In this document: positions 4,130-62,950 of the stretch, one piece after another | Position numbering within the stretch: position 1 is the first letter of the stretch | How the letters are laid out: every line of letters starts with the position of its first letter | Source: Anaeramoeba flamelloides | Lineage: Eukaryota > Metamonada > Anaeramoebidae | Direction of reading: 5' to 3' | NCBI GenBank assembly: GCA_027625915.1 | Contig: JANTQA010000033.1 | Coordinates: 8,928,001-8,992,000, forward strand | DNA: 64,000 nt | Notes under the pieces: model-generated | Told to the model about the DNA's origin: nothing | Database searches by the model: none | The model's input: only the letters and a program-made list of their open reading frames with translations | Position numbers and translations under genes: made by a program

Positions 4130-5015
4130 ATTTAGAAAACAGAATTTAAATTCGAAAATTTGGTAATTTGAATTAATAAAAAGAAATTTAAATTCAAAAA
4201 TAAATTAAGAAATTTATCTCTACCTTATCTTAGAAAAATTAATAGAATTTAACCAAAGAATTAACAATAAAATTAATTGGAATTCAAAGAATTTAAAACT
4301 TCTTAAAAACGAAATTGATAATTATAATAATAATGAGTTGTTGAATTCTACCATTTTGAAGTGTCGTTATGTTTTTTTTTTAATTCAAGAAATAAAAAGA
4401 AAATTTGAGAAATTTTCTTTTTATTTCTTGAATTAAAAAAAAAACGCCGTTAGTTTTTCAGTATTGAAAAAAATTGAGTTAAATCTTGGATTTTATTCTA
4501 TTCTTTTGAATTTTGGAAAACCGCCGTTATCTTTTTTTTTAATTTGAGAAATTAAAAGAAAGCTAGGCACTATACGGTACTTGACGGACACTCCACGAGA
4601 ATATTTAAAAATAATTAAAAACCAAAAATATTTATTTATTAATCAAAAATATTTAAGTTATTCATCAAGCTCAACAATATTCTAAAATTCAGAACATTTA
4701 CTAACTGCTTAAATAGATATTACTATGTAATAAATAAAAACTCAAATAAATTTTTTCCTTTATGTTTAAAATATGAACATAAATAGATAATAGAAAATAT
4801 TGATCATTTTTTATGGGTATGTCCTTTCTTATGAAAAAAATAGATAGATATTTTTAAATAAATTAAAAGAATTAAATTTTAATGAAATAAATTTGTAAAA
4901 TATGACAGTTTGAAATTATTTTCATTAATTAATAATAGTGAAATCTATGATTTTACGCTTAATTCCTGAAAGGTAATTTAAGTCTAAGGGCACCGAGAGT
5001 GTAATTTACACTTCC
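4130..5015 (+). mobile_element. LINE family-A 3' fragment (plus strand) with hairpin array
   Basis: Plus-strand LINE C-terminal coding remnant: a region equivalent to the end of the reverse-transcriptase ORF up to 4365, then a hairpin array, then remnants of the zinc-knuckle part (IDHFLWVCP near 4790-4830). The 3' signature GAGTGTAATTTACACTTCC lies near 4990-5010. Stops interrupt all frames. Confidence 0.75.
4366..4605. repeat. Modular hairpin array 1 (inside LINE)
   Basis: At least two long hairpins occur in series. The first is a T/A-flanked AATTCAAGAAATAAAAAG stem and loop at about 4371-4443. The second is a TTTTTCAG...GAATTTTGGAAAA arm pair at about 4450-4530, bordered by CGCCGTTA on both sides. 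The array ends with AGGCACTATACGGTACTTGA, a degenerate decamer cap. It sits at the same LINE position as arrays at 13.8 and 62.2 kb. Confidence 0.75.
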
Positions 5016-5214
5016 TCAATGTAAAAAAAAAATAAAAAGATTTTTTTTTAAATATTTTAAAAATTCATATTTCCAACTTTTTAATATTTATATTTAAATT
5101 ATTTGAAAACTGCTCAAACCCAGATTAATATTTGATTAAGTTTTTATTTTTTTTTTTTCAATTTCTTATTTATGATTTTATAAAATATAGACATAAAAAA
5201 AAATCTTATTTAAT

Positions 5215-5525
5215 CAGAGACCATATATCAAAAATTCTTTTTCAATCGAAATTAATTCAGATCTTGGAAAATAATTTGTGATATATGGGCTCATATTCTA
5301 TGATATTGTTAATTTTATGTCTAGATTTTATAAAGTCAAAAATTAAAAAATAGTTAAAATTAAAAACATTCAATTATTAATCTGACTCAGACTGTTTGTC
5401 AAATAATTTAAAATTAAAAAAAAATTATTTGTTTCAATAAATGTCAAACTTTATTAGAGATTAAAAAATATTATTTTTTTTATTTCAAATTATATATCTA
5501 TATATATATATATATATATATCCCT
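5215..5525 (+). repeat. Unclassified repeat R7, copy 2
   Basis: GACCATATATCAAAA, then TTTTATGTCTAGATTTT, then TTAATCTGACTCAGACTG, ending in a TA dinucleotide tract. The same word order recurs at 6240-6480 as a direct copy and at 3886-4010 inverted. Confidence 0.65.
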
Positions 5526-6239
5526 TAGCACCCCGGATTTGCCTAAATTTCATCAAGTTTTTTAAATTAGATTTAAAATGATATTGATCTACTAATATAT
5601 TAATTTTCTTATTTGTCTTTAATACAGATTTTAATTATAATAAAAAGTCAAAATAGTTCAAAGATAAAGTAGTTAAGTTATTGATTTTTTTTTTGGAAAT
5701 TGAAAAAAAAAATAATAATTATTCATTTTTACATTTTTTTATAGATTTTTATTTTTATTTTATTTTTTTAAATCAGAAATTTTATTACATTAATAGTAAT
5801 TCAAAACTCAACACATTAATTTATTAATAATAACCACCAAACAATTTTGCTAATTTTATGATATAAAAAATAAATAAAAAAATAAATTACTTTGAAATTT
5901 ACTTTTTTTTTTAGAAAAAATTTCAATAAATATCCAATTAAGAGAAAAATGAAATTTATTTCTTTAGACCAAAATTAAAAGTTTAATACGAATAAATATC
6001 TAAAACTTTTATTTAAGCAATAGATAATAATTGAAAATCAAAAAAAAAAAAAAAATTGTAAAATAATTTCAATTTATTAAATTGGTATAAAACAAATATA
6101 AATTATTTTTTAATCGATAAAATATTTAAACCTAAATTTAAAATAAAATAAAAAATAACTCTTAAATATTATTCCAATATAATAAAATAATCTCCAAAAC
6201 CAAATTTTTTTTATTGCATTTTATTATTGGTAAAAATTT
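5526..6239. other. AT-rich spacer, nothing recognised
   Basis: Almost pure A/T sequence with homopolymer runs. No open frame, splice pattern, repeat match or RNA gene could be supported. Confidence 0.5.
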
Positions 6240-6480
6240 GAATAATATATTTGCGATATTTGGATTTTTCCTTTAAAAATTAATCCAGATCTTGTTAAAT
6301 AAGTTCTGATATATGGTCTCTAATTCAACAATATTGTTTATTTTATGTCTAGATTTTAAAAAGTCAAAAATTAAAAAATTGTAAAAAATAAAAAAAAAAA
6401 AATCAATTATTAATCAGACTCGAACTATTGGCCAAATCATTTAAAATTGAAAAAAAGTCTTGTTGAAAAAATTGTAAAAT
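6240..6480 (+). repeat. Unclassified repeat R7, copy 3
   Basis: Same ordered words as 5215-5470: CAGATCTTGTTAAATAAG, TTTTATGTCTAGATTTT and TTAATCAGACTCGAACTATT. Direct orientation relative to copy 2, about 1 kb apart. Confidence 0.6.
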
Positions 6481-6544
6481 TTTGCAATGAAAAAAAATTT
6501 TATTTTTTTTTCTAATTTAATTTATATTTTTTTTTATTTTTAAA

Positions 6545-7010
6545 TTATTTAGAATCTAATATAGATATTGATATTGAATAGTAATCAGTAGATAAACAAA
6601 TTTTCTATGTGATGTTATAATAACTTTTATAATGAATAAATTATTTAATCAAGCATTTAAGGCAATTTTGGTGGTCGAAAGGAATCATGTATTTTTTCCC
6701 AGTAAAGAATGTTGTGTTTTAATCATTAAAACTAAGAGTTTTTGAAGTTTTGACAAATTATTCAAAAAAAAATTTATATTTTTTTTGACAAAATTTAGAA
6801 AAATAATTTGTAAAAAATAATAAAAAAATAACAAAGAAAAATTCCCAATGTTGAAAATTTTTTCAAAGTTATTTTGTTATTTGTAGTTACCTATACAATT
6901 TTTAATTATAAATTTTTTTTTCTAAGATGGTTTTTATTAAATTATATATCTTAAGAAACTTGGAATAACAATTCAAATTAAAATTTTTATTTCAAAGACA
7001 ATTGAGTTAA
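6545..7010 (-). repeat. Unclassified dispersed repeat R2, copy 2
   Basis: Reverse complement of the family seen at 480-940 and 9570-9990: GAAAGGAATCATGTATTTTT, CCCAGTAAAGAATG and GTAGTTACCTATACAATT in the expected inverse order. No coding content. Confidence 0.6.
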
Positions 7011-7319
7011 TTTGGGCTCTAAGGGATATACCGATATACTGTGAGTGTGTATGCGTACATGTCAATTTATTTATTTATTTTTTTTTTAGATTTCTAGATT
7101 ATTACTTGTTTTTAAGAAGGGAGTCGTAAAGTCTTTAATTTATGAAAGAAAAATGTTGGATTTTTTTTATTATGAAACTTTTTTCTTTTTCTTTTTTGTC
7201 TTTGACATATTGAAATTTTGCTACATTTCAATACATTAATCATTTTTTGCTAATGCCCATCCTCTAAAAAAAAAATTGATTAATTTGGATTAAAGAATTA
7301 ATGCAAATAAACAAAAATA

Positions 7320-7456
7320 AATAAAATCTAAAGAATAATATCTTTGATATTATTCAAAATAAAGAATAAGTATTTATCATGTCATTAGTTGATGATAAAA
7401 GAAAATTATAATTTTTTATTAAAATTTTCAAAACAAAAAATTTAGAAATTAGCGAA
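7320..7456 (+). mobile_element. LINE 3' UTR fragment interrupted by a hairpin array
   Basis: AATATCTTTGATATTATT and the downstream AAAATTTAGAAATT resemble the 3' UTR of the LINE copies ending at 1433 and 62950. The match stops where the decamer-capped hairpin array starts at 7457. Confidence 0.45.
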
Positions 7457-8030
7457 GGTTCCGTCGAGTGCCGTAGAGTGCCTAGGTTTTCCAGAATTCA
7501 AAAGAATAGAGAAAAATCAAAGATTTTGCTAGATTCTTTTAAATTATGGAAAACCTAACGCACTTTTTTTTTAATATTGAATTAATTTAATTCGAGAAAA
7601 TCTATTGATTTTTAAAATAAACAAAAAACTCAAGAAAAATTTAGGATAGGTTTTTTTTAAATTTCAGAAATTAAAATAAAATTTGTGAAATTTTCATCTT
7701 ATTTCTTAAATTAAAAAAAAAACTAACGGAAGTTTCCCAGTATTCAAAAGAATAGAGAAAAATCATAGATTTAACTCAATTCTTTTAAATTCTGTAAAAT
7801 ATAACGGTGTTTTTCTTGAGGTTTTCATTTTGATTATGATATAATCTATTGATTTTCGTTAGGTTTTTTTTAATTTTTGAAATAAATAGAAAATCAATAG
7901 ATTTTCTGTTTATTTCAAAAAGTAGAAAAAAAATAGAACACTTACCAAATAAACGGAAAATTCAAGAAAACCTAATGGTAATAAAAGAAAATCAATTTTC
8001 TTCCGTTTAAAATAAAAATAAATGTATAAA
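7457..8030. repeat. Modular hairpin array 2 (longest)
   Basis: Starts with a decamer cap, CCGTCGAGTGCCGTAGAGTG, followed by a series of hairpins. These are a GGTTTTCCAGAATTC...AAATTATGGAAAACC type, a TTTAAATTTCAGAAATTAAA type with its A-rich reverse arm, a second TTCCAGTATTC type, and two types built on GAAATAAATAGAAAATC. Units are separated by AACGG or TAACGC words. An apparent open frame between splice-like signals at 7954-8066 is inside this array and is not treated as an exon. Confidence 0.65.
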
Positions 8031-8187
8031 TCTTTTAAAAAATGAAAAGGCTGAAAAATAATTATATATATATATATACTCTTTTTTAACATTACTTGGT
8101 ATAAAAAAATAAAAAAAATATGCATACCTCCTATTATTTTAAATAAATAATATCATTATTATATAAATATAATTATATCAAAAATTA

Positions 8188-8226
<39 letters not shown>

Positions 8227-8324
8227 AATTAGAGTGTATAAGAATTAATAGAAAGGGGAAAATATCGAAAATATAAATTTTTTTCTCATTTCCCATAAAG
8301 TTTTAAGTTTCAAAAAATTCTTAC

Positions 8325-8911
8325 AGTGTCTGTTAGTGTTATATCGCAATTATGTTCAGATATCCATTGTATTGCATCGATATTTTGGCTATACTTTATA
8401 ATTAGATGTAATGGTGTATCTCCTCTGTTTGTATTGAAACACTATATTTTAGTTCAATTAATATATTTTTTTTTTAAAAAAAAAGTACATATATAACAAT
8501 ATTAATAAATTGATTTTCATATATGGTTATTAATTAATTTTTGAAGGTATCTTGTGTATAAAAATAAAATTGAATCTTACAGTTCTCTGTTCTAAATTTG
8601 CATTATAATTATAAAATATTTCAAGATGATCTATTTGGATTTCTCTTTTCATACAAAAATAATGGAAAGGGGAATATCCTTGTTTCTAAATATTAAAGAA
8701 TATACATGAAAAAAAATTAATAATTAAATATTTTATAATTTTGTTTGATCCGTGCTTTTTTTTATATGAATAAAAAAAAAAAATAAAATAAAAAAAATGA
8801 TCTTACATCAGTTAGATTTGGATTGCATCCTTTTTTTAGCATTGTTACTAATTGTTTAAAGTTACTTTTGTGATTTTTCATCAAATTATGTAATATTGTA
8901 CGCTTTTGTTT
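8325..8911 (-). CDS. Ankyrin-repeat gene: three exons, one repeat each
   Basis: Three minus-strand exons with GT-AG borders: 8911-8807 (35 codons, KRTILHNLMKNHKS ... KKGCNPNLTD), 8685-8581 (35 codons, KQGYSPFHYFCMK ... NYNANLEQRT) and 8441-8325 (39 codons, NRGDTPLHLIIKYS ... EHNCDITLTDT). Each matches the ankyrin pattern (G-[DY]-[TS]-P-[LF]-H, then a second helix and a G/N-x-[ND]-x-N-type loop). All introns are phase 0, so exon equals repeat. Ankyrin repeats mediate protein binding; the target is unknown. Probably continues from the exons at 12.7-13.1 kb and perhaps 18.5 kb. No terminal exon was recognised downstream. Confidence 0.75.
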
Positions 8912-8974
8912 CTTTTATTAAATATAGATAAATATAAATAAAGACAGTTTTGGTTAAATTTATAAAAGAGGGTA

Positions 8975-9520: not shown

Positions 9521-9569
9521 TATATATATATATATAGATTTCTATGAATCAAAAATAATCTTATTGTCT

Positions 9570-9990: not shown

Positions 9991-10059
9991 TTAATTGATG
10001 TTAAAATAAGAAATTAAAATATATAATTTGAAAAAAATAAACATTTTTATTATTATTAT

Positions 10060-10496
10060 TATTGATGAAGAAGTGTAAATTACACTTTAAATACCCTTAG
10101 ACTTAATTTGCCTTTCAGAAATTAAGAGTAAAATCATAGTTTTCACGATTATTAATTAATGAAAATAATTTCAAACTATCACAGTTTAAAATCAATTCAT
10201 TAAGATTTATTTCTATTAATTTGTTTTGAAATATTAATCTATCTTTTTCATAGGAAGGAAATACCCATAATAAGTGATTAATATTTTCTATAATGTATCT
10301 TTTGATCATATTTTGAACATAAAGGGCAAAATTTATTTTATTTTTTTTTATTACGTAGTAATATCTATTTAAGCAGTTAGTGAATGTTCTGAATTTTAAA
10401 AATATTGATTTTAATTGATAACTTAAATATTTTTGTATTTTAAATAAATAATTTTGATTTTTTAATTATTGTAGAATATTGTTGTCAGGTATCTCT
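10060..10496 (-). mobile_element. LINE family-A 3' fragment (minus strand)
   Basis: Minus-strand reading gives INHLLWVFPSYEKDRLIFQN and a downstream stretch ending DFTLNF, equivalent to the post-zinc-knuckle region of other copies. This is followed by AGTGTAATTTACACTTCTTC and a TAA-repeat tail at about 10040-10062. At its 5' side (10497) it joins a hairpin array at the same LINE position as in the 13.8- and 62.2-kb copies. Confidence 0.75.
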
Positions 10497-10735
10497 AGTA
10501 CCGTAGAGTACCGTCAAGTGCCGTAGAGTGTCGTATAGTACCGTCAAGTACCGATGTTTTCTTCAGGTTTTCTGTTTGTCTGTTAAGTGTTCTATGTTTT
10601 TTTTACTTTTTGAAATAAACAGAAAATTTTAATAATTTTTCGGTTTATTTCGAAAAGTAAAAAAAAACAAACGAAAATCTATTGGTTTTATAAATAAACA
10701 GAAAACTCAAGAAAAGCTAACAGTAAAGAAGAGGA
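10497..10735. repeat. Modular hairpin array 3
   Basis: Begins with about six degenerate decamers (TACCGTAGAGTACCGTCAAG and variants). Hairpins follow, built on GAAATAAACAGAAAATTTT and its inverse, and on CAGGTTTTCTG/CAGAAAACTCAAG arms. Left flank is a minus-strand LINE-A body; right flank is a plus-strand LINE-B tail. Confidence 0.65.
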
Positions 10736-10772
10736 ATTAAAAACCCCATCCGGTAAATGATAAAAAAAAAAA
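10736..10772 (+). mobile_element. LINE family-B 3' tail
   Basis: AGAGGAATTAAAAACCCC corresponds to the family-B terminal hairpin seen at 62915-62935 and 45371-45395. Its attachment to a LINE-A-anchored array makes this a chimeric junction. Confidence 0.5.
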
Positions 10773-13324: not shown

Positions 13325-14130
13325 TTTTTTTTTTTTTATTAATGAGGAAGTGTAAATTACACTCTAAGTGCCCTTTTACTTAAATTCCCTTTCAGAAATT
13401 TAAGCGTAAAATCATAGATTTTACAAGTATTAATTAATGAAAATAATTTTAAACGGTTATAATTTAAAATTAATTCATTAAAATTTAAATCTTTTAACTT
13501 ATTCAGAAAAATTAATCTCTCATTTTCATAGGAAGGAACATACCCATAAAAAGTGATCAATATTTTCTATTATTTCATTATGTTCATATTTTAAACATAA
13601 AGGACAAAATTTGCTTGAGGCTTTTTCGATTACATACTAATATCTATTTAAGCAGTTAGTAAATGTTCTGAATTTTAGAATAATTGAGCTTGATGGATAA
13701 TTTAAATATCTTTGATTAATAAATAAATAATTTTTTTTTGGTTTTTAATTATTTTAAAATATTCTTGTGTAGTGCCGTAGAGTGCCGTCAAGTGCCTAGG
13801 TTTTCCAGAATTCAAAAGAATTGAGTAACATCAAAGATTTAACTCAATTCTTTTAAATTTTGGAAAACCTAACAGCGGTTTTTTTTAATTTGAGAAATAA
13901 AAAGAAATTTTTTGAAATTTTCTTTTTATTTCTCAAATTAAAAAAAAAGCTAATTGCAGTATTCCAGAATTAAAAAGAATAGAACAAAATCAAAAGATAC
14001 AATTATATTATTTTAAATTCTGGAAAACCTAACAAAGCTTCCAATTGATAGAATTCAACAACTTATTAGAATTATAATTATATATTTCTTTTTTAAGAAG
14101 CCTTAAATTCTCAGAATTTGGTTTAATTTT
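13325..14130 (-). mobile_element. LINE family-A 3' fragment with internal hairpin array
   Basis: Minus-strand 3' signature AAGTGTAAATTACACTCT near 13345 and the C-terminal remnant GYVPSYENERLIFLNK at 13380-13560. A hairpin array occupies 13774-14040. More LINE ORF follows beyond it (TTGTTGAATTCTATCAATTG, equivalent to 4335-4360). Inserted between ankyrin exons in antisense-free (same-strand) orientation. Confidence 0.75.
13774..14040. repeat. Modular hairpin array 4
   Basis: Cap GTGCCGTAGAGTGCCGTCAA, then three hairpins: a GGTTTTCCAGAATTC.../...TTTTGGAAAACC stem, an AATTTGAGAAATAAAAAG stem with loop TTTTTTGAAA, and a second CCAGAATT.../...AATTCTGGAAAACC stem. Hairpin order differs from the array at 62.2 kb although both sit at the same LINE site. 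Confidence 0.8.
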
Positions 14131-16516: not shown

Positions 16517-16690
16517 TATAGGTTTTCCAGAATTTAAAAGAAGAGAACAATATCATATTGATTTTACTCTATTCTTTTGAATCCTGGAAAACGTAACAGC
16601 GGTTTTTTTTACTTTTTGTCATAAACAGAAAATTTAAAGAACTTTTCGGTTTATTACAAAAATTAAAAAAAACCGAACTCCAAAAAAAAA
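16517..16690. repeat. Modular hairpin array 5 (outside a recognised LINE)
   Basis: AGGTTTTCCAGAATTTAAAA is mirrored by TTCTTTTGAATCCTGGAAAA. AACAGCGG and a second hairpin based on ATAAACAGAAAATTTA / CGGTTTATTACAAAA follow. No decamer cap or LINE sequence was recognised at its borders. Confidence 0.6.
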
Positions 16691-19472: not shown

Positions 19473-19547
19473 AATGTCCTCGTTTTTGGTTGTTGATTTT
19501 TCAAGATTGATCGTTTATCGTAGGTTGGTTGTTTTTGATAGGTGTTA

Positions 19548-19915
19548 CAGCCAATTTATTCAACTTGTGAATTTTTTCTTTCCTTTTGTAATATAACCTG
19601 AAACAAAAAAATTGTTTAAAACTTTTTTTTCTTTCATCATGTTGTGACAAAAATTGTTTAAAGCAATTTTTTTCTTTCAAGTTAAACTTCATAATGAAAG
19701 AAAAATTCTCAAGTTGAATAGATTGGCTCTAATGGTGGTTTAGGTGAGTTTAAAAGCAAGAATTTTTGTAATGTTTCAGAACGAAACATTACAAGTTGAA
19801 ACGAAATAATTTTTGTCACAACATGATGAAAGAAAAAAATGTTTTAAACAATTTTTTTGTTTCACGTTATATTACGAAAGGAAAGAAAAAATTCAAAAGT
19901 TGAATAAATTGGCTG
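19548..19915. mobile_element. TA-flanked long-arm MITE (Tc1/mariner-like)
   Basis: Terminal arms of about 110 bp start CAGCCAATTTATTCAACTT and are mirrored on the right, ending GGCTG. TA lies at both borders (19546-19547 and 19916-19917). Inside is a perfect small palindrome, GTAATGTTTC ... GAAACATTAC (19768-19792), and a partial third arm (AAGTTGAATAGATTGGCT near 19718), suggesting internal rearrangement. Confidence 0.7.
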
Positions 19916-19929
19916 TAGGTACTCATAAA

Positions 19930-35895: not shown

Positions 35896-35900
35896 TTATA

Positions 35901-36092
35901 CAGTCAGTTCAACTTTTAAGACACAAACTTTCACGAAATTTAAGGCACAAAAAATTCTCAAATTATGGTACAAAATTTTGAATTTTTATTTTTACAAATT
36001 ATTTTAAAAAAACTGAAATTTGTACCTTAATTTGAGATATTTTTGTGTATTAAATTTCGTTAAAGTTTATGCCTTAAAAGTGGAACTGACGT
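35901..36092. mobile_element. TA-flanked MITE, CAGTCAGTT family, copy 2
   Basis: CAGTCAGTTCAACTTTTAAG on the left; CTTAAAAGTGGAACTGAC on the right; TA on both sides. Inner AAATTTAAGGCACAAAAA and inverse. About 192 bp, folding back almost completely. Confidence 0.8.
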
Positions 36093-36234
36093 TATATATA
36101 TAACCTGATATTATAATAATTAAATTAAAATAAAATCAAAAATCAAAAATCAAAAAAAAAAGTTTTTCAAAATTTTTGAAAAAGAGTTTATTTAGTCAAA
36201 AAAATTATATATAAATATTATTTATTAATTATAA

Positions 36235-44989: not shown

Positions 44990-45405
44990 ATCCAACCTAT
45001 GAAAATAATCGCAAAATCTGGATATCTGAATTAAAAAAAATAAATATATATTGAATATATTAAATAATAATAATATTTCTAATATTATTATATAAAGGGA
45101 TTCAACCTGTTTATTAGCCTTAGTGGATAATAAACTTATTTTTGAGTCTTTAATAAAATTCATAAATTACAATTTAGGAATTCGGGAAGTGCCATAGAGT
45201 TATTAGCTTTTCCAGAATTCAAAATAATAGAGAAAAATCAGATATTTTACTCAATTCTTTTAAATTCTGGAAAAGTAAACGGTGGTTTTTTTTTTTAATT
45301 TGAAAAATAAACCAAAATTTACATAAATTTTCTTTTTATTTCTCAAATTAAAAAAAACCTAACAGCAAAGAAGAGGAGTTAAAAACCCCCCTTAAATAAT
45401 AAAAA
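44990..45405 (+). mobile_element. LINE family-B 3' end with hairpin array
   Basis: CTATGAAAATAATCGCAAAA and ATATTAAATAATAATAATAT match 62710-62800. The body reaches ATTTAGGAATTC, then a hairpin array (45187-45370), then the family-B terminal AGAGGAGTTAAAAACCCC and an A-rich tail. Confidence 0.7.
45187..45370. repeat. Modular hairpin array 6 (in LINE 3' UTR)
   Basis: AGTGCCATAGAGTTATTAG cap remnant; hairpin GCTTTTCCAGAATTC.../...AATTCTGGAAAAG; linker AAACGGTGG; hairpin AATTTGAAAAATAAAC.../...TTTATTTCTCAAATT; then CCTAACAGC. Interrupts the LINE-B 3' UTR between GGAATTC and GCAAA, a different LINE position from the other arrays. Confidence 0.75.
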
Positions 45406-49510: not shown

Positions 49511-49513
49511 AAT

Positions 49514-50131
49514 ACTGTTGTAAAAAAGTGTAATAAAACAGTTTTCAATTAATTGTGTCTTTAAAACAGTCAACAAACTTAAGTGGAGTTCTAAATGAAT
49601 TCTTCAGATCCACCGCAAATTCTCTCCTTTCATTTTGGTAAAGGTGAACAAAATTCTACAATCCAAAGATAAAAATAAATTATTTTTGTAAAAAATAGAG
49701 TTTTTTTTGATGATGTTTTTATTTTTGGTTCTATTGTAAATACCCACTTATCACATAAAAGTCTTAATGAAGATTAGTATTGTTTTATGGGGAAATTATT
49801 AAATTTCTGAGTTATTAGTACAAAAAAATTAAAAATTCTGACTCAAAAGAAAAACTAATTGAATAAATATCTTCTTAGGTTGCCTTTTTAAGTGATTTGA
49901 TAAGTGAGGTTGTTGAGTAGAACCAAAAATAAAAACATCATCAAAAAAAACTCTTTTTTTTGCAAAAATAATTTATTTTTATCTTTGGATTGTAGAATTT
50001 TGTTCACCTTTACCAAAATGAAAGGAGAGCATTTGCGGTGGATCTGAAGAATCCGTTTAGAATGTAAATCCTGAAATATAACTATTTTCAGGCTTTTTTA
50101 TAAACATTTTGGTCACACTTTTTTAAAATGA
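49514..50131. mobile_element. Long-armed foldback element
   Basis: Arms 49599-49735 and 49918-50053 (about 137 bp) are near-identical inverse copies with only a handful of differences (for example CTTCAGATCCACCGCAAA and TGGTAAAGGTGAACAAAATT). Weaker inverse similarity extends outward to AAAAAAGTGT on both sides. The 180-bp spacer is non-coding. A sequence like its outer left arm also occurs at 48143-48215. Confidence 0.75.
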
Positions 50132-51449: not shown

Positions 51450-54400
51450 ATGAATAATAGTAAACAAGAAATTTTAGAAAAAAGAAAAACACTAGGGGGG
51501 TTTTCAAGAAAGAACCGTAATAATAAATCAGTCGATTTAAGTAAAAAATTCAAACTGAGTCCATTGCAACAAAGATTCAAAAATAATATTATCACAAAAA
51601 ATAAAAGAACAGCCAGTGTAGATTTAACAGCCATGAACAGACGAAAATATAAATCATTGAAACTTGATATGAACACAACGAATAATAAAATAAAAAAAAA
51701 ACTTTCAAAGGAAGAAAGAAAAAAACAAAGAGAAAAAAGAAAAGAAGAAAAAAAAAAAAAGAAATTAGAAGAAAAAGAAATGAAAAAAAATAAAAAAGAG
51801 GAAAAGAAAAGAAGACAATTAGAAAAAAAAATTTTAAAACAAAAAAATAAAAGTAAAAAGAAAAAGAAAATTAAATCCAAAGATGTCACTAAAATTGATT
51901 TAACCAATCAAGAGCTTATCCAAATGATCATGTCACCAGATTATTCTCTGATAAAATATATTATATCAATTTTAAAAAAATTAAAAGAATACGACAGAAT
52001 CATCGTGTTGTTATTAAATATTTTTAATATACAACAAAAAACAATGGAATTTCTTGAATTTTCTATAGCACATGAAATAGAATTAACAAGTAAGTACAAT
52101 TATATTCCTAGTAATTGAATAGATTATTAATTCTTTTTGTGATTATAAAATCATTTGAAAATAATTTTATTTTATTTCTTTTTTTCTTTTCTTGTTTTTT
52201 CAATTCCTTTTCTTCTAATTTCCTTTTCCTTTTTCTTTCTGGTTATCTTCCAAAAATAGAAAAATCTGAAAATCTCTTTCGAAGCAATACTTTTACTACA
52301 AAATTGTTAACTGTTTTTACTCTGTTGTATGCAAAAAAATATATTGTTGATACACTTCATTTTCCAATTAATAACATAATGTTAGACAATCGAAATTTAG
52401 AAATCGATCCAAACAAAATCCAAGAAAATGAAGATCATAAAAATAATTGTGAAAAAATGAAAAATAAAACAAAACTATTTTTAGACACAATTCTTCAATC
52501 CAAAACTGACGAATATATGTAATTTTTTTTTTTTTTTCTTTTATTTCAATCTCTTCCTATTATTATTTATTGAATTAATGAAGTTGAATGTATTTATCAA
52601 AAATTTTGATAAAATTTAATAATATTATAACTGTATACCATAGAAATCCATTTTTTTAATATAAATCAATTTTAAATATAAAAAATTACTAAAAATTTAC
52701 AACAACAATGATTACAAATTAGAAATAAAAAAAGTAAAACATTTTTTTTCAAAAAGTCGGAAACGCTGTTCTGTTTTTTTTAATTTTTATTTTGATTCTA
52801 AAATCGTTAGATTTTCCAAACAAAAACAATAATTAAAAAAAACACCTTTAACCTTTCTGGTATTTAAAAGGATAGAGTAGAATCATTGATTTTATTCTAT
52901 TTTTTGGAAACCTGGAAAATCAAACGGCACCCCATTACACTCTACTTCATTCTATTGTAATGAAGTTAGGTTTTTCAGAATTTTCTTTTAGTTTAAAAAA
53001 TCCGGAAAAACGTTTGTTAGACTTTTTTTAATTTGTCTTTTGATTCTAAAATTGATAGATTTTCTAAACAAAATCAATCTGGCTTTTACGTAATTTGTTT
53101 ATATAAAATGAATTACAGAACAGAAATCCCAAAATACATTTTTTTGTTAAATTTTCAAGATCATTAACCTTTTTAGGTAATATGTGCATCTAAAACGAAT
53201 TACCAAATATAACTTCCATAAAATGAATAAAAGAAAAGAAATTCCAAAAGAGATGTTTTTTTTTAAATTTAAAAAGATTAAAAAATCAAAAAAAGTTTTT
53301 AAATTTCAAATAACAAAAACAAAACAAAAAAAAATATTTTTGTTTTTCATTATTTCTTTTTCTGAATTTCCTAATTAACATCATAATTTTTTAACACACG
53401 GCTTTTTTTTTCAGATTTTATAATAGTTAGTAAGACTCGCTCGTATGGGATCTGATAAATTATATAATTTGTTTTTCAATTTCGTGTGTACTATTATTCA
53501 ATAAATTTCTTATCTCTTGAAACTCTTTTTTTTTATAATCTTTAACTTTCAATTGGGTTATTAGTTTCTGAGGATTTTGAATGGGATAATTAATTCTAAA
53601 TTATTTTTGTTTATCCTTTTTACTTGAAATTTTAATTTTGAAATATATATATATATATATCTCAAAAAATTGTTTTTTGTAACAAAAATTACATAATATC
53701 TATTTTGTAAAATAAATTCTGTAAATTATGTATTTCAAATTCTGTTAAATAAATTATCTTAAGCAATTTTTAGAAAAAAAAAATCCGATATAAAATAATG
53801 GAGGAATATCTTTTTTTTATCTAAAAGAATTTTATGTTCCAAATAAAAATAAGGGATTTTTTTTTTCAAAATATTTTTTTTATTTCATTAATTTCTATTA
53901 TGAGAAATTCCTAAGAAAAAAAAAAAACTTGGATACTCTATGACACTCTACGACATCCCCAAAAAAATATTCCACAATAATAAAATATCAAAATTCATTC
54001 ATTATTTACCACTTAAAAGTATCAAAGTTATCCATAAAGTTTAACAATTTTAAAATTTAGCACATTTACTAATTGCCTAAATAGATATTCCTCTGTTATA
54101 AAAAAATAATTCAAATAAATTTTGTACTTTATGTTTAAAGTATAAACAGAAGGAAATTTTAGAAAATATTGATCATTTTTATTTTTTATACTTTTTACCT
54201 TTTCCAAATTTCCCTTTTTAAGTTGTTTGGGTTCCTCCTCTTTTTGTTTTTTTAGGTGCTTGGAGAGGTTCAAGGAATAAAAAATCATTATAAGAATTGG
54301 TGGACTTGGTCATGACTAACCTAACCAAACTTGTTAATGATCAGATCTAAAATGAATTGAGCTGGACTTATGCAACTGTGGAGAACTGAATCCAACGAAT

Positions 54401-54534: not shown

Positions 54535-54590
<56 letters not shown>

Positions 54591-55755: not shown

Positions 55756-55794
<39 letters not shown>

Positions 55795-58255
55795 TTTAGT
55801 ATTCAAGAACAAAAAATAATTAAATCTGATTAATAATTCACGTTTAAATAATTCTAAATATATAAAAACCTGATATTTTAAATAATTAAATAAAATAAAA
55901 CCAAAAACTAAAAAAAAGTGAGTTTCAATTTTTGAAAAGAGCTTTACAGATTTTTATTAACTGAACTTTCACAAAAAAAAAAAGTTGAACAACAAGATTT
56001 TTTATGAATAATTAAATTCATTTTCAAAGACATTACATAGTCTCAATTTTCATATTGATTATTTGTATTTTCGAAGATCTCTTTTTTTTCTATATGATCT
56101 TATGCAAAAAAAAAAAAAGAAAAAGAAAAATTTTTCAAAAAAAAAGAAAAGAAAGCAAAACAAAAAGAAAAAGAAAAAGAAAAAGAAAAAGAAAAAAAAG
56201 AAATCGAAAAAAAAGGAAAAAAAAAAAACAAAAGAAAAACAAAAATTTTGAAAAAGAAAAAATAAAATTTGCAAAATTATTAAAAAATGATTCTGATCCA
56301 AAAATTTGAAAATATTTTTTTGATAAGAATAATGGATAAGCCCTCAAAACAACTTCTATTAACATTATAAAGTGAGTCAAAATTTTTGAAAAATAGTTTA
56401 TTTTCCAGTCAAAATCCACCAGTTTTAATGGACGAATTACATGTATTTAAAGTCTTTAAATTGATATTAGAAGAAAATTATTTATTTTGAGGAATTTCAA
56501 AATTGAAATAATTTTTTCTCATTTTTGCTTTTTTTTTTTTTTATTTTGAATTTTTTTTTGCAACGTAATTCATTTTAAAATTTTTTTTTTTATTAAAAGA
56601 TCAAGAGTCACAAATTCAAAAATCTTGTTATTACAATGTTATTGAAAGTGTAAAATGATTGTAGAAAAATTATATTTATTTCTATTGGAATTTCCTTAGG
56701 ATCTTCAATTGAAGATCAAAATGAGCATTATTGTTTTTTTCAATGGATTCCGGAAGAATTTTAATTTTTCAATTTTTAAGAACATTTATTGATTAATTAG
56801 ATTTACTTCAGACAAATATCAACTATTCTCTGATGTGTGTTATTCAACTTATTACTTTTTTCTTGTTCAAATGTTAATTATAAAAAAAAATTGATATTTG
56901 AAAAATTCTATCGGGGACTTTTGACTGAAACAAAGTTTACTTATTTCTTATTTTTATGACACATTATTAAACACCTTTGTTTTTTTTGAGTTTATGATCA
57001 AACTCAATTCTTTATTTTTAAGTCTTTACACCACCTTTAATTAATTATTTCTTTATTTTTTGAAATATAGCCATTTTAAAAAAGTCCTTAACTTTTTTAA
57101 AACTTTTTTCGAGTTTTCTATTTCAAAAAAGTGAAAAATTTTTCAGAATTAAATCTTTTTGAAGGTTTTCTATTTTAATAAAATAAAGACTTTTTGAGAA
57201 TTGAAACTTTTAAATGTTTTTTATTTTAATAAAGTGAAGGATCAACCTTTAAAATGTTATTTCGAGTTTTCGAGTCGGAAGAAAAGTATCTTTGTTTAAA
57301 AAAATTCTCCACTTTATTTAAACAAAAAAAAGTTTTAATTCCTATAAAACCATAAAAAAAAAAGTTTTCACTTTTTTAAAACAGAAAACTTTTTAAAAGT
57401 TTTAATTCTCAAAAATTTTTTACTATTTTAAAACAGAAAACTTTAAAAAGTTTCAAGTATGACCCCCTTAAAAAAAAAAAAAAAAAGAGTACTTACCTTT
57501 TTAAAATAGCTGCAACTAATTATTTATTTGACTAATTGATTATTTTTTCCATTAATTGGTTATTTTTTTAATTAATTGATTATTTATTTGATTTTTTTTT
57601 TTTTTAATTTATTTAATTGATTATTTTGTTGATTTGTGTTTCCTGTTAATCATTTTAATTCTTTAATTTTTTCTAAAAAAAACTCAATAATTAAAAAAAA
57701 AATTAAAAAAATAGAGAATTCAAACATATTTGTTATTTACTCAGAAGTGTCGTGAAAAAAAGCTTCCCCGAAATGGAATTAATGGCAGTAGGATCATTTA
57801 TTTTTTTAAGGATCTTTTGTGTATTTATCTCATCACCTACAGATATTGGACTGGCGACCAAAATCCCAGAAATGAAAACCAGAAAGGTTTTGATCCAAAT
57901 AACAAAGTTAATACAAGCTTTGGCTAATGACACACTATTTGGCGAAGCTAGCTATATGAATGTTTTTAATGATTTTTTAACCAACAATAAAGAATCAATG
58001 AAAACATTTTTAGAAGAAATTTCTTCGACAGATTATTCGTCAGAAATCGCGAAAAGTGATCCCATTTTCAAAAAAAAAACATTATTTTCTTTTGCGAAAG
58101 AATTAAAACAAATATTTGGTTTAAATTATGACATCATGAATGAAGAATTAATGAAAACCAAATCTCGAATGTCTCAACAACAGGAAAAACAAAAGTCGCA
58201 AATCCCCAAGGAAAATGAAAAAAACGAAAAAAGCAATCAAAACTTAGAAATCTAG
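51450..58255 (+). CDS. RasGAP-domain protein, three exons, 469 aa
   Basis: RasGAPs stimulate GTP hydrolysis by Ras-type GTPases. Exons: 51450-52089, 52260-52518 and 57745-58255; introns GTAAGT ... AATAG (170 nt) and GTAATT ... TTACTCAG (5226 nt). Phases 1 and 2 match, giving exactly 470 codons. Residues 1-80 are basic, 85-145 a Lys-rich coil. The RasGAP domain runs from about 165 (SLIKYIISILKKLKEYDRII): LFRSNTFTTKLL contains the presumed arginine finger R221; NLEIDPNKIQENED; AVGSFIFLRIFC carries the FLR signature (R322, stabilising arginine); LIQALANDTLFGEASYMNVF closes the domain. The usual PA after FLRxxx is replaced by VF. Between TILQSKTDEY and SVVKKSFPE the family normally has about a dozen more residues (P-x-x-LR-x-I), so a mini-exon may hide in the long intron. 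The last 55 residues are Gln/Lys/Glu-rich. Confidence 0.88.
52750..53060. repeat. Modular hairpin array 7 (in RasGAP intron 2)
   Basis: TTTTTATTTTGATTCTAAAA / TAGATTTTCCAAACAAAAAC units and CTTTCTGGTATTTAAAAGGA mirrored by TTTTTTGGAAACCTGGAAAA. Linkers AAACGGCACC, ACTCTACTTC and GTTAGACTT recall the decamer cap. Diverged; the order of units differs from other arrays. Confidence 0.55.
53935..54180 (+). mobile_element. LINE family-A fragment in RasGAP intron 2
   Basis: Decamer-cap remnant ACTCTATGACACTCTACGAC, then AATTGCCTAAATAGATATTC and GAAAATATTGATCATTTTT, matching the zinc-knuckle region of the 4.1-5.0-kb copy. Stops abruptly at 54180. Confidence 0.6.
54185..54589 (+). mobile_element. GC-richer insert with 53-nt poly(A) tail (candidate retrocopy or SINE)
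   Basis: From about 54290 to 54536 base composition jumps to near 45-50% G+C, unlike anything around, and it ends in an uninterrupted run of 53 A. Near the 3' end a unit of about 31 bp is duplicated in tandem (TGTCGAGTCGTTACCTGGAC and TGTCGAGTCGGTATCTTGTA). All three plus frames are open, so it is not evidence for a protein. No tRNA-like A/B box pair was convincing. It separates two LINE pieces. Confidence 0.5.
54690..54988 (+). mobile_element. LINE family-A 3' end in RasGAP intron 2
   Basis: GAAAATATTGATCATTTTTT, ATGGGTCTATCCTTCC and CGCTTAAATTTCTGAAAGG, then the terminal hairpin GAGTGTAATTTACACTTC and A-rich tail. Confidence 0.7.
54998..55228 (+). mobile_element. Second LINE family-A 3' end in tandem
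   Basis: Immediately follows the previous tail: AATATTGATCATTTTTTAAG through CGCTTAAATTTCTTAAAGG and GAGTGTAATTTACACTTTG. Two truncated 3' ends in the same orientation, head to tail. Confidence 0.7.
55229..55290 (+). repeat. (ACT)n/(AAT)n microsatellite after LINE end
   Basis: Seven or so ACT units pass into AAT units directly downstream of the LINE terminal signature; other copies carry TAA-type tails, so this is probably the expanded tail. Confidence 0.75.
55715..56430 (+). repeat. Unclassified repeat R3, copy 2
   Basis: TTCAAAAATTGTGACTCACC, an AT dinucleotide tract (55757-55791), TTCGAAGATCTC, a long AAAAAG purine tract (56108-56250), then TTGAAAAATAGTTTATTTTC and AATCCACCAG. Ordered match to 50385-51060. 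Lys-only frames across the purine tract are not genes. Confidence 0.65.
56490..56950 (+). repeat. Unclassified repeat R4, copy
   Basis: AAATTGAAATAATTTTTTC through TTTATTTCTATTGGAATTTC, then GATCTTCAATTGAAGATC, a perfect palindrome, and TTTTGACTGAAACAAAG. Matches 43290-43520 directly and 34380-34660 inverted. Confidence 0.55.
57060..57440. repeat. Short direct and inverted repeats built on AAAACTTTT
   Basis: Units like AAGTTTTCTATTTTAATAAA recur about five times, first in one and then in the opposite orientation (AAAACAGAAAACTTTTTAAA), so the block can fold on itself. Lies in RasGAP intron 2 just before the acceptor. Non-coding. Confidence 0.5.
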
Positions 58256-58261
58256 ACCATA

Positions 58262-58930
58262 AATAATATTGAAAACTAGTTCATTGAAAAATATAAAATG
58301 CAATATTACTTATTCGTTCTTTTTTTTTTTTTTACATTTTCTTTGATAAAATTACTCTTTTCTTTACAAGAATTTTTAATTTATATTTTTAATATTATTA
58401 TTGTTTAATAGTAATCCAGATATAAAAAAAAATAATAAAGATTTATAATATTTATCCATCTAATATGGATAAATAAATAAGAACTTTATAAACTATCTTT
58501 AATTAATTTTTAATTAATCTCAAATAATACAAAAAATGATTTTATTTTGAAATATAATTTATTATCTTTAATTTTACAATGATTTTTTAAAAGCATTAAA
58601 AATAAAATCAATTGGATTTGAAACAATCATTTCTAATTATTTTTTGATTCATTTTTGAATTTTGTGTTTGCTTTGTTTAGTTGTTTTTTTTTGTTTTTTA
58701 TTCTTACTTCTTTCTTCTTTTTTCTTTCTTATTTCTTCTTTCTTCTTTTTTCTTTCTTCTTTCTTCTTTCTTCTTTCTTCTTTTAAAGGGATGAGTTATT
58801 ATTTCCAAAGGTTTCATTTAAAAACCTTTTTATGCCGATTTAGGATAGATTTCATTCTTTTACAAGTAGAATAAGTTATATTTACCTGCTTTGTCACGAT
58901 TATTCGATTTTTTAATTACATACTTTCCAA
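58262..58930. other. 3' flank of RasGAP with a CTTCTTTC microsatellite
   Basis: Low-complexity sequence after the RasGAP stop. 58700-58785 is a pyrimidine microsatellite of CTTT/CTTC units. No gene recognised. Confidence 0.55.
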
Positions 58931-58936
58931 AGCTAC

Positions 58937-60240
58937 AGCTGTTCCAAAGCTACCTTGAAATTTTTTAAATATCAAACTTTGATGCAGATATAGATTTTTA
59001 AAAAGTTGAATATAAGAATAATAAAACTCATATTGAAAAAATTTTTCCATTAATGAGTTGATATGAAAAATAAACTTCTGATGTGATCAAAATTTAAATT
59101 TATTTTTTAGAGGATATTTTATACTGTTTCTCAATGAATTTTTGATATTTAGAGTTATTTTGGATTCTGAAAATCTATTTTTTATGAATCAGAAAAAATT
59201 CTTGAATATTTGCATGTTTAGATACCGCTGTTCCAAGGTTGCCGTGAAAATTTATCAATATCAAATTTTTATGTTGATATAAATTTTTAAAAAGTTCAAT
59301 ATAAGAATAAGAAAGCTTATATTGAAAATATTTTTCCATTCATGAGTAGATATAAAAAATATTTTTCAAATGTGATCGAAAAATAAATTCATTTTTGAGA
59401 GGATATTTTATGTCGTTTCTTAATGAATTTTTGATATTTAGAATCTTTTTGGGTTCTGAAAATTTATTTTTTGAAAATCAGATAAAATTCTTGAATATTG
59501 GTTCATTTAGGAATTTTTTTTTTCAATATAAGCTTTAGTATTCTTATATTGAACTTTTTAAAAATTTATATCAACATCAAAATTTGATATTGAAAAATTT
59601 TAACGGTAGCTTTGGATCGACTGAAAAATGAAATTTTTTCAAAACTGTTAATTGTAAAATAAAAAGATCAAAATTTTCATTCAGCTTTCCAAAATAATCA
59701 CCTCGTATGATCATTATTAAATCACCACAACCCCCAATTCGAAAAGGGAGAAATTAATAATTTATTCTAATTTTACGAATAAAAAATTGAAAATTTACAT
59801 GATACAAAACCCTTTTTGGAAAGCTGAATGAAATTATTGTTCCATTTATTGTTAAACAAATCGTATCAAATTTGGATGTTGATCTAGATTTTTAACTCTA
59901 AGAATATGAGTATAAGAAAGTTCATTATGATAATTTTTTTTTATAAATTATTTCAATATTAAAGGATTTTTTTCTGATATGAAAAAAAAATAAAAATAAT
60001 TTCATAAGAGTATATTTTATCTGGTTTCTCGGTGAATTTTCGATGTTTAGAGTCATATTATGTTGTGAAAATGTCTTTTTTGAATATCAGATAAAATCCT
60101 TGAATCTTCGTTAGTTTGGGCAATTTTTTTTTTTAATTTAAATTTTATTAGACTGATATTCAACTTTTTAATAATCCGTTTTTAGATTAAAATATTATAT
60201 CAATTTTAAGTTGATGGTTACGTTATAGATATATGATTTC
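58937..60240 (+). repeat. Tandem repeat of ~290-bp units with an inverted partial copy
   Basis: Units start at 58937 and 59227 (GCTGTTCCAA...GTTGCC type), with shared words TTTTTAAAAAGTT, TTTCTTAATGAATTTTTGAT and CAGATAAAATTCTTGAATAT. A partial inverted unit occupies 59520-59640 and a more diverged third unit about 59860-60120. Unit order and divergence suggest old local duplication. Non-coding. Confidence 0.75.
59678..59829. mobile_element. Small MITE inserted in the tandem-repeat block
   Basis: CATTCAGCTTTCCAAAA on the left and TTTTTGGAAAGCTGAATG on the right; about 150 bp; splits the inverted partial unit from the third tandem unit. Confidence 0.6.
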
Positions 60241-60535
60241 TTGATTTAAGAAATATCTGATTTGATATTTAATTTTATTTTGTTTTGTTAAAATTATACA
60301 AAGAGTGATTACAAATGTTTTTTGTTGTTTGTGATTGAGGAATGTTTTTAAAGATTGTTGGTAATATATTTATATTTAGGTTTTGATACAGTTGGTTATC
60401 AAAGTGTTCATTTGATTGTAAGGGTGTCTTTCGATTATTTATAGGTAGTTTCAAAGAAGTATTTTTTTTGATTAATTTTAGATTACCAATTTTTACAACC
60501 TAATAATTTCCAAAATATGTTTTAAAATGTACATT

Positions 60536-60608
60536 GCCTTGCTAGCTCAGTCGGCAGAGCGTCAGACTCTTAATCTGAATGTCGCGGGTTCGAACCCCGC
60601 GTAGGGCT
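60536..60608 (+). tRNA. tRNA-Lys (anticodon CTT)
   Basis: Complete cloverleaf without intron: acceptor GCCTTGC/GTAGGGC (with G-U pairs at 4-69 and 6-67), D arm GCTC-AGTCGGCA-GAGC, anticodon arm TCAGA-CTCTTAA-TCTGA with CTT at 60569-60571, variable ATGTC, T arm GCGGG-TTCGAAC-CCCGC. Internal promoter boxes TAGCTCAGTCGG and GGTTCGAACCCC are intact, and a T-rich pol III terminator follows at 60612. It closely resembles nuclear eukaryotic tRNA-Lys(CTT). The discriminator base is T; eukaryotic tRNA-Lys usually has G there. Confidence 0.97.
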
Positions 60609-60619
60609 TTATTTTTTCT

Positions 60620-61435
60620 TTTTTTTTGACTCTTTTTTAACTTTTTTGATAGATGGGGTGTCGTTCTTTTAAAAAACTGTAAAAAACTTTTTTAAAATCT
60701 ATTCTGTTGAGATCTACAAAAACCTAAAAAAAAAAATTCTTTACTAAATTTTTAAACAAATTTTGTTAAAATTTTTCACTTTTTTTAAACTTTTCTAAAT
60801 TTTTCAACAAAAAAACATGTTCTCTAATTAGTATCTTCTTTATTGTATGAACTTTTTTCAAGATATTACCTTTTTGTTAATTGAAATAAACTTTTAAATA
60901 TTTTACTTCTCTTCAAAAAAAAAAAAAAAAAGTAGATTTATTAAAATTAAAACAAAGTAACACATAGACCAAGTCGAAAAATTGATTTGGTAACAACCGA
61001 TTAGAGCAATAGGTAAATTTTTTGAAAGTCTTTTCAACCTTTTCTAACTTTATTCCGATTTGATAAATTATTCTATTTCTAATAAATAAATGATAATTTT
61101 TATTTCAAGTTTCACAAATATTCTTTCTGGAAAATAGTTGTAAAAATCCCTGATCTTCTTAAGATCGTTTGGAGATAAAACTCTTGAGATTAAATTTATG
61201 TTTACTGATTGAACTTTGAGATAAAATTTATTTTTCTTAATTTGAATAAAACAGTATTATTTTCTTTTGAAAGTCGAATAAAAATTTGATATATTTTGTT
61301 TCAGTACATAGTCAAGATCTTTATGTAGAGTATTGAAAATAACAACCTATCATGAAAATAATACCAAAAAAGATTTTCAATTGTGAAAATTAGGGACAAT
61401 TTTTTGCAATTTCTTTTATTTTCAATAAAATCCTT
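60620..61435. other. AT-rich stretch, nothing recognised
   Basis: Short frames of Lys/Phe/Asn codons only; no repeat family or exon recognised between the tRNA and the LINE. Confidence 0.45.
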
Positions 61436-61439
61436 TTTA

Positions 61440-62950
61440 TAAATAATCAAATTTTTAAGGAGATCCATTATCTCTTTTATTATTTGGATTTATTACTCAT
61501 TTTCTCACTAGAAAAAAATCAAATCACTAGCGTTACATGTTCAAATGTTTGCAGATGATCTTAAATTTTTACTGATGAAAGGATCAATAATAGAAATAAA
61601 TTTTCAATTACAAAAAATCTTTAAAATAATAAAAGATTTCGGAATGAATCCGAATGATGATAAAACTAAAAAAACTTAAATTCCAAAAGAAATTTTATAT
61701 CTTGGTATTTGGCTAGATAAAAAAACTCAATCTATGTTTCAACCTTGATAAAGTTAAGGCCAATTTTAAAAAGTTAATCAATATACTAGAACAAAAAATT
61801 TTTCTAATGGGTTAAAAATTCAATTTTTTAAAGCTGTATTACATAGCCAATTATTCTCTGGATTAGAAATATTTGATTTGACAAAAACAGATTTTAAAGA
61901 TATTGATACTTGGATTAATAAAAAAATTACAAAATTTTTATTAATCAACCCACACTCTCCTCAGACTTATTTATAAAACTGAAGCTAAAAATTGATCCTG
62001 TTAGAATAAGGATATATAAAAGAAGATTGAAGTTAATTCAAAAATTAAAAATCCTCCATTTTGATGAATTAATTAATTATCTCCCTTTTAGAAAAAAAGA
62101 ATCAGAAAATATAAATTGGAACTCCCAAAATTTAAAACAACTGGAAAATGAACTAGAAAATTTTAGAATTAAAAACTTAGAAAATAGTCCAAGTTGGAAA
62201 TGTCGTTAGGTTTTTTTTAATTTAAAAAATAAACTGAAAATTTCTTAAATTTTAAGTTTATTTCTTAAAATAAAAAGAAAACCGCCGTTAGATTTTCCAG
62301 AATTCAAAAGAGTAGAGTAAAATCTAAGATTTTAGTCAATTCTTTTAATTTTTTGAAAAGCTTCGTTAGGTTTTCTCGAGTTTTCTGTTTATTTGGAAAA
62401 TCGATAGATTTTCGAAATAAATCAGAAAACCTCAAGAAAACCTAGGCACTCTACGGCACTCTACAGCACTCCACAAGAATATCTAAAAATTATACAAATC
62501 ATAATACTATAAATAAGCAGCAAAGATATTTAAAATGGAAGGGTTCTACCTCAACTTGAATTTTAAAACTCAGAAATTTTACAAATTATCTTAAACAGGT
62601 ATTCTTATGTTATGAATAAGAATAAATCAAAATTGTGTGAGTTATGTAAAAAAAAATGAACAATTTAGATATTATTGAAGATTTAGACCATTTTCTATGG
62701 AACTGCTCAGCCTATGAAAATAATCGTAAAATCTGGATTTCTTAATTAAAAAAAATTAATATATCGAATATATTAAATAATAATAATATTTCTAATATTA
62801 TTTTAAAAAAGGATTCAAACTTCTTATTAGCCTTAGTGGGTAATAAACTTATTTTTGATTCTTTAATTAAATTCCTAAATAAAAATTTAGGAATTCTGGC
62901 AAATAAGAGGGGTCAATAACCCCTCCCTTAAATAATAATAAAAAAATAAT
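61440..62950 (+). mobile_element. 5'-truncated LINE family B with hairpin array
   Basis: Starts within reverse transcriptase: GDPLSLLLFGFITHFL (61463), VQMFADDLKFLLMKGS (61546), LYLGIWLDKK (61700), then the connection region NINWNSQNLKQLENELENFR and NSPSWK (62190). The hairpin array interrupts the coding part at SPSWK. Zinc-knuckle remnant CELCKK ... DHFLWNCSAYENNR lies at 62640-62730. The 3' UTR ends in the hairpin GAGGGGTCAATAACCCCTC and a TAA-rich tail. Several frame breaks make it a dead copy. Confidence 0.85.
62205..62480. repeat. Modular hairpin array 8 (inside LINE)
   Basis: Three hairpins in order: AATTTAAAAAATAAACTGAA type (62214-62285), TTTTCCAGAATTCAAAAGAG type (62295-62370), and GAGTTTTCTGTTTATTTGGA / TCAGAAAACCTCAAG type (62375-62440). 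Linkers are CGCCGTTAG and CTTCGTTAGG. The cap GGCACTCTACGGCACTCTAC then AGCACTCCAC is three decamers. LINE coding resumes at AATATCTAAAAATTAT. Confidence 0.8.

Follow-up and report, generated by a model that had tools for sequence, protein, structure and literature searches.

Chains of palindromes interrupt LINE reading frames at recurrent positions in Anaeramoeba flamelloides

Foldback elements and elements resembling miniature inverted-repeat transposable elements (MITEs) belong to a class in which copies recombine with one another, and Helentron/HINE elements combine short inverted repeats and internal tandem repeats with insertion that leaves no target-site duplication. All of these traits appear to recur in the palindrome arrays described here, which were found in a 64,000-nucleotide stretch of the Anaeramoeba flamelloides genome (contig JANTQA010000033.1, positions 8,928,001 to 8,992,000; hereafter the window) and which interrupt long interspersed nuclear elements (LINEs). 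Like foldback/MITE-like elements, for example Tetris of Drosophila virilis (PMC4079207), the arrays have an inverted-repeat architecture, no coding capacity that could be seen, and many copies. They are unlike these elements in showing no target-site duplication, in setting several different palindromes behind tandem decamers, and in holding fixed positions mainly in LINE open reading frames (ORFs). Helentron/HINE elements (DINE-1; PMC4067079) are also among the nearest systems; in contrast to them, the sites of the arrays recur exactly, and a Helentron-type end motif was not seen by eye, with no profile test made.

Introns that resemble mobile elements offer a second comparison. According to one study (PMC7789003), the introners of Amoebophrya are gene introns, many with direct repeats of 3-5 nt at their borders; as in the arrays, pairing inverted repeats draw the junctions together, repeated families interrupt coding sequence, and borders are noncanonical. 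The nonconventional introns of euglenids and the noncanonical introns of diplonemids are removed from RNA and have been proposed, in the studies that describe them, to be of MITE-like origin, and those of euglenids have a conserved pairing of positions +4 to +6 with -8 to -6 (PMC4770533, PMC12621601); these introns, too, share end pairing and noncanonical borders with the arrays. Unlike the introners, the arrays lie in LINE ORFs, lack direct repeats and recur at identical sites, and unlike the euglenid and diplonemid introns they have a common empty form, at the site called S0 below, that is not a simple join; in both comparisons the arrays are known from genomic DNA alone. Bacterial mosaics of repetitive extragenic palindromes and bacterial interspersed mosaic elements (REP/BIME) likewise alternate hairpins in composite structures (PMC2817692, PMC3116915); they are bacterial, extragenic and reported to be associated with tyrosine transposases, whereas the arrays belong to a eukaryote and lie within LINE ORFs. 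A literature search turned up no account of an element built in this way, but it did not reach most subscription-journal papers or bioRxiv and is hence no proof of novelty.

The arrays are real and well above chance level. Scanning the 64 kb mechanically for hairpins returned 13 strong ones (score >=16), 12 of which fall within arrays listed by a first-pass annotation of the same sequence, the thirteenth lying at 35935-36058; nine of ten first-order Markov controls gave none and the other gave one. Throughout the 254-Mb genome (76 contigs), the pattern CCAGAATTC-N10-40-GAATTCTGG is present at 32 places, against 0 in a reversed control. A search of viral_contigs with one exact array pattern gave 0 matches, and bacterial genomes gave just 4 single 21-nt matches, which we regard as chance. 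The window itself has 18-30% G+C in 2-kb blocks; its coding content includes an EMC1 homologue as well as a RasGAP domain, which mark it as eukaryotic; an Rfam scan of it at gathering scores found tRNA only and no other known RNA family.

An array opens with tandem decamers (GTGCCGTAGA/GTGCCGTCAA, the outermost frequently GTGTCGTCAA), continues through GTGCC-TAGG into one to several palindromes of ~70-80 nt joined by CTAACGGC-type linkers, and ends in CCTAACGAC or CTAACGGC. Four palindrome types can be told apart by their stems: T1 (CCAGAATTC), T2 (AATTTGAGAAATAAAAAG), T2b (ACTTTTTGAAATAAACAG) and T3 (CTTGAGTTTTCTGTTTATTT). The first-pass annotation had placed decamers, linkers and stem types at or near the coordinates where we find them; its stem types hold, and its set was incomplete, as it lacked T2b. 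This fourth type often sits within the T3 loop, where it is present in two of the numbered loci that we read (L032 and L085) and missing from a third (L088). A full module, decamers-T3[T2b]-T2-T1, is ~350 bp long, and 18 aligned copies have a mean column identity of 88%. The annotation's picture of a modular build with decamer caps and a variable order and number of hairpins is borne out by arrays of the forms T1-T2-T1, T1-T3-T2-T1, T3-T1-T2 and single T1, although its numbering is replaced: by our typing the array at 62.2 kb reads T2-T1-T3 and that at 13.8 kb T1-T2-T1. The full module recurs at several sites, but the existence of other orders, and of arrays that join the flanks of two different sites, means that the copies are not all one invariant sequence from which internal pieces have been deleted.

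At corresponding positions, T1 and T2 are each found in either orientation (e.g., L005, L007, L016), a flip/flop that looks like in-place inversion of palindromes. L091 departs from L089 and the other full modules in its T3, whose right arm duplicates its own left arm (CCTAGAACACTTAACAAATG) to give one long near-perfect palindrome, which looks like arm-to-arm template switching. Terminal inverted repeats, TGTCGT...ACGACA, close the fold of the L085 array and recur at sites S0, S1 and S4. The predicted RNA fold of the L085 array reaches -143.8 kcal/mol (z -16.4; 0/100 shuffles equally low) and pairs left-end UGUCGU with right-end ACGACA, so that the two junctions would come together. The same fold pairs decamers with linkers and prompted the idea that decamers and hairpins are equally numerous in an array; many exceptions were seen by eye, and the idea was rejected. 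Automatic parsing of hairpin numbers was unusable because neighbouring hairpins cross-fold.

Wherever the host sequence is readable, the arrays break a LINE reading frame behind the reverse transcriptase. The first-pass annotation had seen that arrays ride in LINEs, and what can now be added is that they interrupt LINE coding sequence at fixed points. The reverse transcriptase is matched by Pfam RVT_1 in two copies of the LINE family F1 (1.7e-20 and 6.5e-20); a Pfam search with the C-terminal piece (L060) gave no match, and a CxxC...H...C motif there may, by our own reading of the cysteines, be a zinc knuckle. An array-less copy of family F1a lies in the window at 1400..2700 on the minus strand, with the reverse transcriptase (RVT_1, 6e-10 at 2021-2674), the C-terminal part with its CxxC...H...C motif, and sites S0 to S3 all empty. 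L032 is a LINE copy 93-98% identical to it in four aligned pieces, plus three arrays at S1, S2 and S3. These sites and others recur in diverged LINEs: S0 follows ...SWK, S2 falls at ...HFLWD|CPAY, and S3 is near the end of the ORF, while the further recurrent sites S3b, S4 and S6 lie in other repeats that are putative LINEs. In the copies read, the orientation of the array is constant at each site, and the S0 array is antisense to the LINE, opposite to those at S1-S3. Occupancy is patchy; for instance, L034 is occupied at S0-S3, the window copy at 62 kb at S0 alone, L085 at S1 with S2 and S3 empty, and L032 at S1-S3. The exact string GTGTCGTCAAGTGCC occurs 641 times in the genome, 89 times at an S2 junction, 40 at an S1 junction and 59 at an S0 junction; reversed controls gave 0.

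A pattern of decamer plus T1 has 91 genome matches, and 40 of these loci were read, a sample biased to T1-first and T1-T2-T1 arrays. BLAST placed 33 of the 40 at flanks in the site library, with matches to the S4 entries discounted in ten loci where they resembled array sequence; four more (L065, L066, L068, L076) were placed by eye, and three (L109, L115, L119) stayed unassigned. The notion of a free-standing element finds no support here.

Young array-less LINE families show clean empty sites. The 40 top-ranked candidate copies of the window LINE, among them the window copy, show 98-100% identity and, one split match excepted, run unbroken through the array sites; unbroken matches are favoured by the ranking, which therefore says nothing on the share of occupied copies. 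Family F1a has 36 near-complete matches including the window copy, the other 35 at 98-99% identity. Of 30 copies read, 29 differ from the majority sequence at 9-20 positions of ~1,200, L061 having been dropped from the comparison (mis-oriented, 750 differences). The majority string leaves the C-terminal protein open across S0-S3, with a -1 frame change at an A-run between the reverse transcriptase and the C-terminal part; the length of the run varies between copies. L032 differs from the F1a majority at 38 positions over 1,078, and 31 of these differences are absent from the other rows.

Our tentative reading, held with a little less than even confidence, is that the arrays are a non-autonomous, foldback-like element. 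It would travel as a hitchhiker in LINEs, be copied anew into homologous LINE sites and seldom move from one site to another. The element would be a chain of palindromes closed by TGTCGT...ACGACA, without evident coding capacity and mainly inside LINE reading frames. It may spread by three routes. As a passenger, it would be copied whenever an array-bearing LINE is copied, which the arrays common to separate LINE copies support. Secondly, other LINE families may re-acquire an array at the same position and in the same orientation, most likely when an array-bearing LINE serves as the template for break repair or for recombination over a short tract. We favour gain at S0 in one family and at S1, with the repair step inferred; short-tract repair or conversion was chosen because it explains the site, the orientation and the shared junctions without a target motif. 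Finally, an entire module would on rare occasions jump to a new position, as suggested by the same module at unrelated sites. An array probably leaves its LINE dead in cis; should such a LINE move at all, array-less LINEs would move it in trans.

The passenger route is supported by L085 and L032, which are 96% identical over 556 bp spanning the S1 array; L085 has a different 3' flank. A tree of modules groups L032 with L085 (97/89), L086 with L087 (99/99) and three S4 copies (94/90). These shared arrays, together with the constant orientation at each site, are what can be said for plain inheritance, the idea that a few old insertions in LINE ancestors were scrambled by decay and that occupancy of the same site reflects common descent. 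As an account of the whole it is very improbable. Occupied and empty copies up to 97% identical coexist within one family and families differ far more; the valine codon of the empty form, described below, is found in another family as well; and one module lies at unrelated sites. Elsewhere the module tree is star-like (3/25 inner branches strongly supported, 13 below 80) and holds S0, S1, S3 and S4 modules together. Between sites, modules are 0.87-0.92 identical and their flanks unrelated, a range from which L090, placed on the wrong array (0.74-0.80), was excluded. Within S0, array identity exceeds left-flank identity in 24 of 28 pairs, with one tie and three reversals; L095 and L099, for example, have arrays at 0.95 and flanks at 0.86 and 0.74.

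Whether arrays were gained or lost bears on a further explanation, in which they are intron-like: they would be removed from LINE RNA, the LINE would stay functional, and array-less families would arise from reverse-transcribed spliced RNA. Ancient introns lost by splicing were the explanation first favoured, as array-less F1 copies look like precise empty sites of L032. This came to seem less likely since joining the junctions common at S0 and S1 does not yield the empty forms. At S0, the flanks of L095 were joined without the array and used as a genome probe, for which continuous matches rank first; all 40 scored matches span an empty S0 and are 83-97% identical. Together with L129-L138, these matches make up a second LINE family with many empty-S0 copies. 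Ten empty S0 copies were read, and each has a valine codon after TGG-AAR (GTC in 7, GTA in 2, GTT in 1), where L095 has TGT. The codon at the empty S0 of F1 is GTT, and a third family (L071, L110, L111) has by eye glycine, GGT/GGC; with Val/Gly codons in empty copies of several families, the TGT of L095 looks derived from a G-rich Val/Gly codon as the ancestral state. Among 21 copies scanned at the S0 junction, 11 have AAR-TGTCGTTA, in both LINE groups seen, and the remainder differ. The common S0 junction is three substitutions away from the empty form, and the junction of L095 cannot yield GTC by joining, which points to a recent gain of the array in the L095 family, at a site and in an orientation seen elsewhere. 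We thus favour, without regarding it as proven, gain of this S0 array rather than loss by splicing. A frame test at S0 was not used, as the joined L095 sequence stays in one frame on both sides owing to the chosen cut and an extra downstream base, and contains a stop.

At S1, seven occupied F1/F3 copies have a readable right junction (L003, L009, L034; L032, L085, L086, L088), and in all of them the A-run behind the array is one base longer than in their family's empty form, known for F3 from one copy, and so one base too long for a matching join. Taken together, the S0 and S1 junctions, L009 excepted, make it less likely that most empty sites arose by simple joins. The intron-like explanation is also at odds with the opposite orientation of S0 and S1-S3 arrays and with the borders, which differ for each site and present no consistent GT-AG pair at the junctions examined across sites. 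A permissive Rfam cmscan of 8 loci gave no group I or group II match (93 matches, all below gathering scores, the great majority to microRNA-type hairpin families). In its favour are the pairing of array ends, which brings the junctions together in the predicted fold; the existence of young families without any array and the patchy occupancy between copies; and by eye a removal with site-specific cuts that keeps the frame in 8/9 S1 right junctions and in 4/6 S2 copies. Moreover, the S0 junction of L009 (locus position ~826), AAA-GGT-CGTTAG, would join to the empty-type codon GGT, the reason why gain at S0 is favoured and not established. On balance we consider the intron-like explanation unlikely.

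The stems themselves were tested for compensatory substitutions, a check proposed in the first-pass annotation, and the outcome is mixed in full modules and essentially absent in T1 hairpins. Across 18 full modules with 114 pairs, both-side changes occur in 4 pairs, a number reached by 172/500 shuffles. Counted as cells, both-side changes number 11 vs 5.1 in shuffles (1/500), the covariation score is 0.033 vs 0.027 (1/500), and 96.0% vs 95.7% of cells are paired (0/500), an excess that relatedness alone can give; several cells derive from a single clade or a single alignment column. The T1 comparison covered 126 distinct hairpins aligned without gaps, matches with length changes being left out; broken cells number 581 vs 580 in shuffles and both-side cells 54 vs 44 (sd 4.8), the latter largely due to one pair. 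Genomic stems thus mostly decay without compensation.

Several observations weigh against the hitchhiking, re-copied element that we prefer. The junction of L009 led us to weight the gain reading down, and the intron-like and self-homing readings up; the last of these, that the arrays are self-homing structured elements specialised on LINEs, whose paired ends and palindromes allow precise in-frame insertion into many LINE families while sufficiently frequent removal from RNA keeps the host LINE alive, an intron-like hyperparasite, still seems to us highly unlikely. L075, L104 and L118 are one or two bases off the common S0 junction and lean to GTT. At S2, L009 without its array is identical to the empty 62-kb copy, which fits exact insertion and does not tell gain from loss. 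The three S4 pairs have similar divergence throughout (array 0.91-0.94, left flank 0.83-0.91, right flank 0.94-0.95), as plain inheritance would give. In a tree built from F1 exons, L032 and L085 fall beside the array-less clade and L086-L088 further out, with weak rooting and support, so that an array-bearing ancestor of the array-less F1 family is possible. The bias of the 40-locus sample counts on the same side, as does the lack of any target-site duplication in occupied/empty comparisons at S1, S2, S3 and S0.

The main difficulty for repair or conversion is that the flanks of L095, by eye, look like those of array-less copies until ~10 nt from the array. A conversion tract would have to be very short, and an insertion enzyme fits equally. 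The chief rival explanation invokes such an enzyme: the array would be a transposon or homing element with site specificity, placed by an enzyme of its own at favoured positions in LINEs (roughly RR^C) and causing no target-site duplication. It would account for the equal site, equal orientation and near-equal junction across the LINE families read, and terminal inverted repeats are present. However, there are at least five sites, whose common target motif is by eye no more than a weak RR^C; the restriction to LINEs is left unexplained; and no enzyme was identified, no search for a transposase having been made. We consider it doubtful, if less so than removal as an intron.

Once in place, arrays probably also change by recombination between palindromes, which would shuffle, nest, flip and delete hairpins; the products of such events are seen in the arrays. 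Two loci combine flanks of different sites: in L117 (1-551) the left flank is that of S2 and the right flank that of S6 (BLAST), and in L108 (1-551) the left flank is that of S1 (BLAST) and the right flank that of S3 (by eye). In the window, the array at 10485..10725 (plus strand; 5-6 decamers, T3 with nested T2b) is bordered on the left by S0-type sequence and on the right, by eye, by S3-type sequence, and is a probable product of recombination between two arrays. From these three mixed-flank arrays, it seems that arrays mediate deletions and exchanges between LINE copies.

The remaining arrays of the window illustrate the range of sites and orders. Three are at S0. One on the minus strand at 4366..4605 (T2-T1-half T2, with decamers on the LINE-downstream side) lies in a plus-strand LINE that resumes at 4600-4844, and another on the plus strand at 13772..14034 (two decamers, T1-T2-T1) lies in a minus-strand LINE. 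The third, on the minus strand at 62204..62480 (T2-T1-T3, decamers on the LINE-downstream side), follows the reverse transcriptase and C-terminal coding part of a plus-strand LINE at 61457..62200, whose part 3' of the array, 62474..62966, has S1, S2 and S3 empty. Two plus-strand arrays are at S3: 7457..7980, at the end of a LINE ORF whose C-terminus is at 7313-7452 (T1, T3, T2, T1 and T3 with nested T2b), and 45187..45370, in a plus-strand LINE (T1-T2). The plus-strand array at 16517..16690 (T1-T2b) is at S6, in another repeat that is a putative LINE. The diverged array that the first-pass annotation placed at 52750-53060 is weakly recognisable as 52768..52928 (plus strand), from one T1-like unit (52854-52928) and a 71% match of 52768-52919 to the 16.5-kb array. 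Two decamers at 53937..53956 (minus strand), adjoining an S0-type LINE flank without hairpins, are a remnant. Apart from the arrays, the window holds long imperfect palindromes unrelated to them (49589-50062, 19546-19917 and 35897-36096, opposite-strand self-matches) and, at 58931-60175, a ~289 bp tandem repeat (two copies, 84%) with partial and inverted matches, directly before tRNA-Lys at 60536-60608.

Elements that enter other mobile elements repeatedly at the same precise coding positions, and leave no target duplication, can serve as a test bed for how homologous sites are found without an obvious motif, and also for how introner-like elements could begin. With array-bearing and array-less copies of one LINE at up to 97% identity, gain and loss become directly testable. 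The arrays look like one parasite living on another and locating its insertion spot by unusual means.

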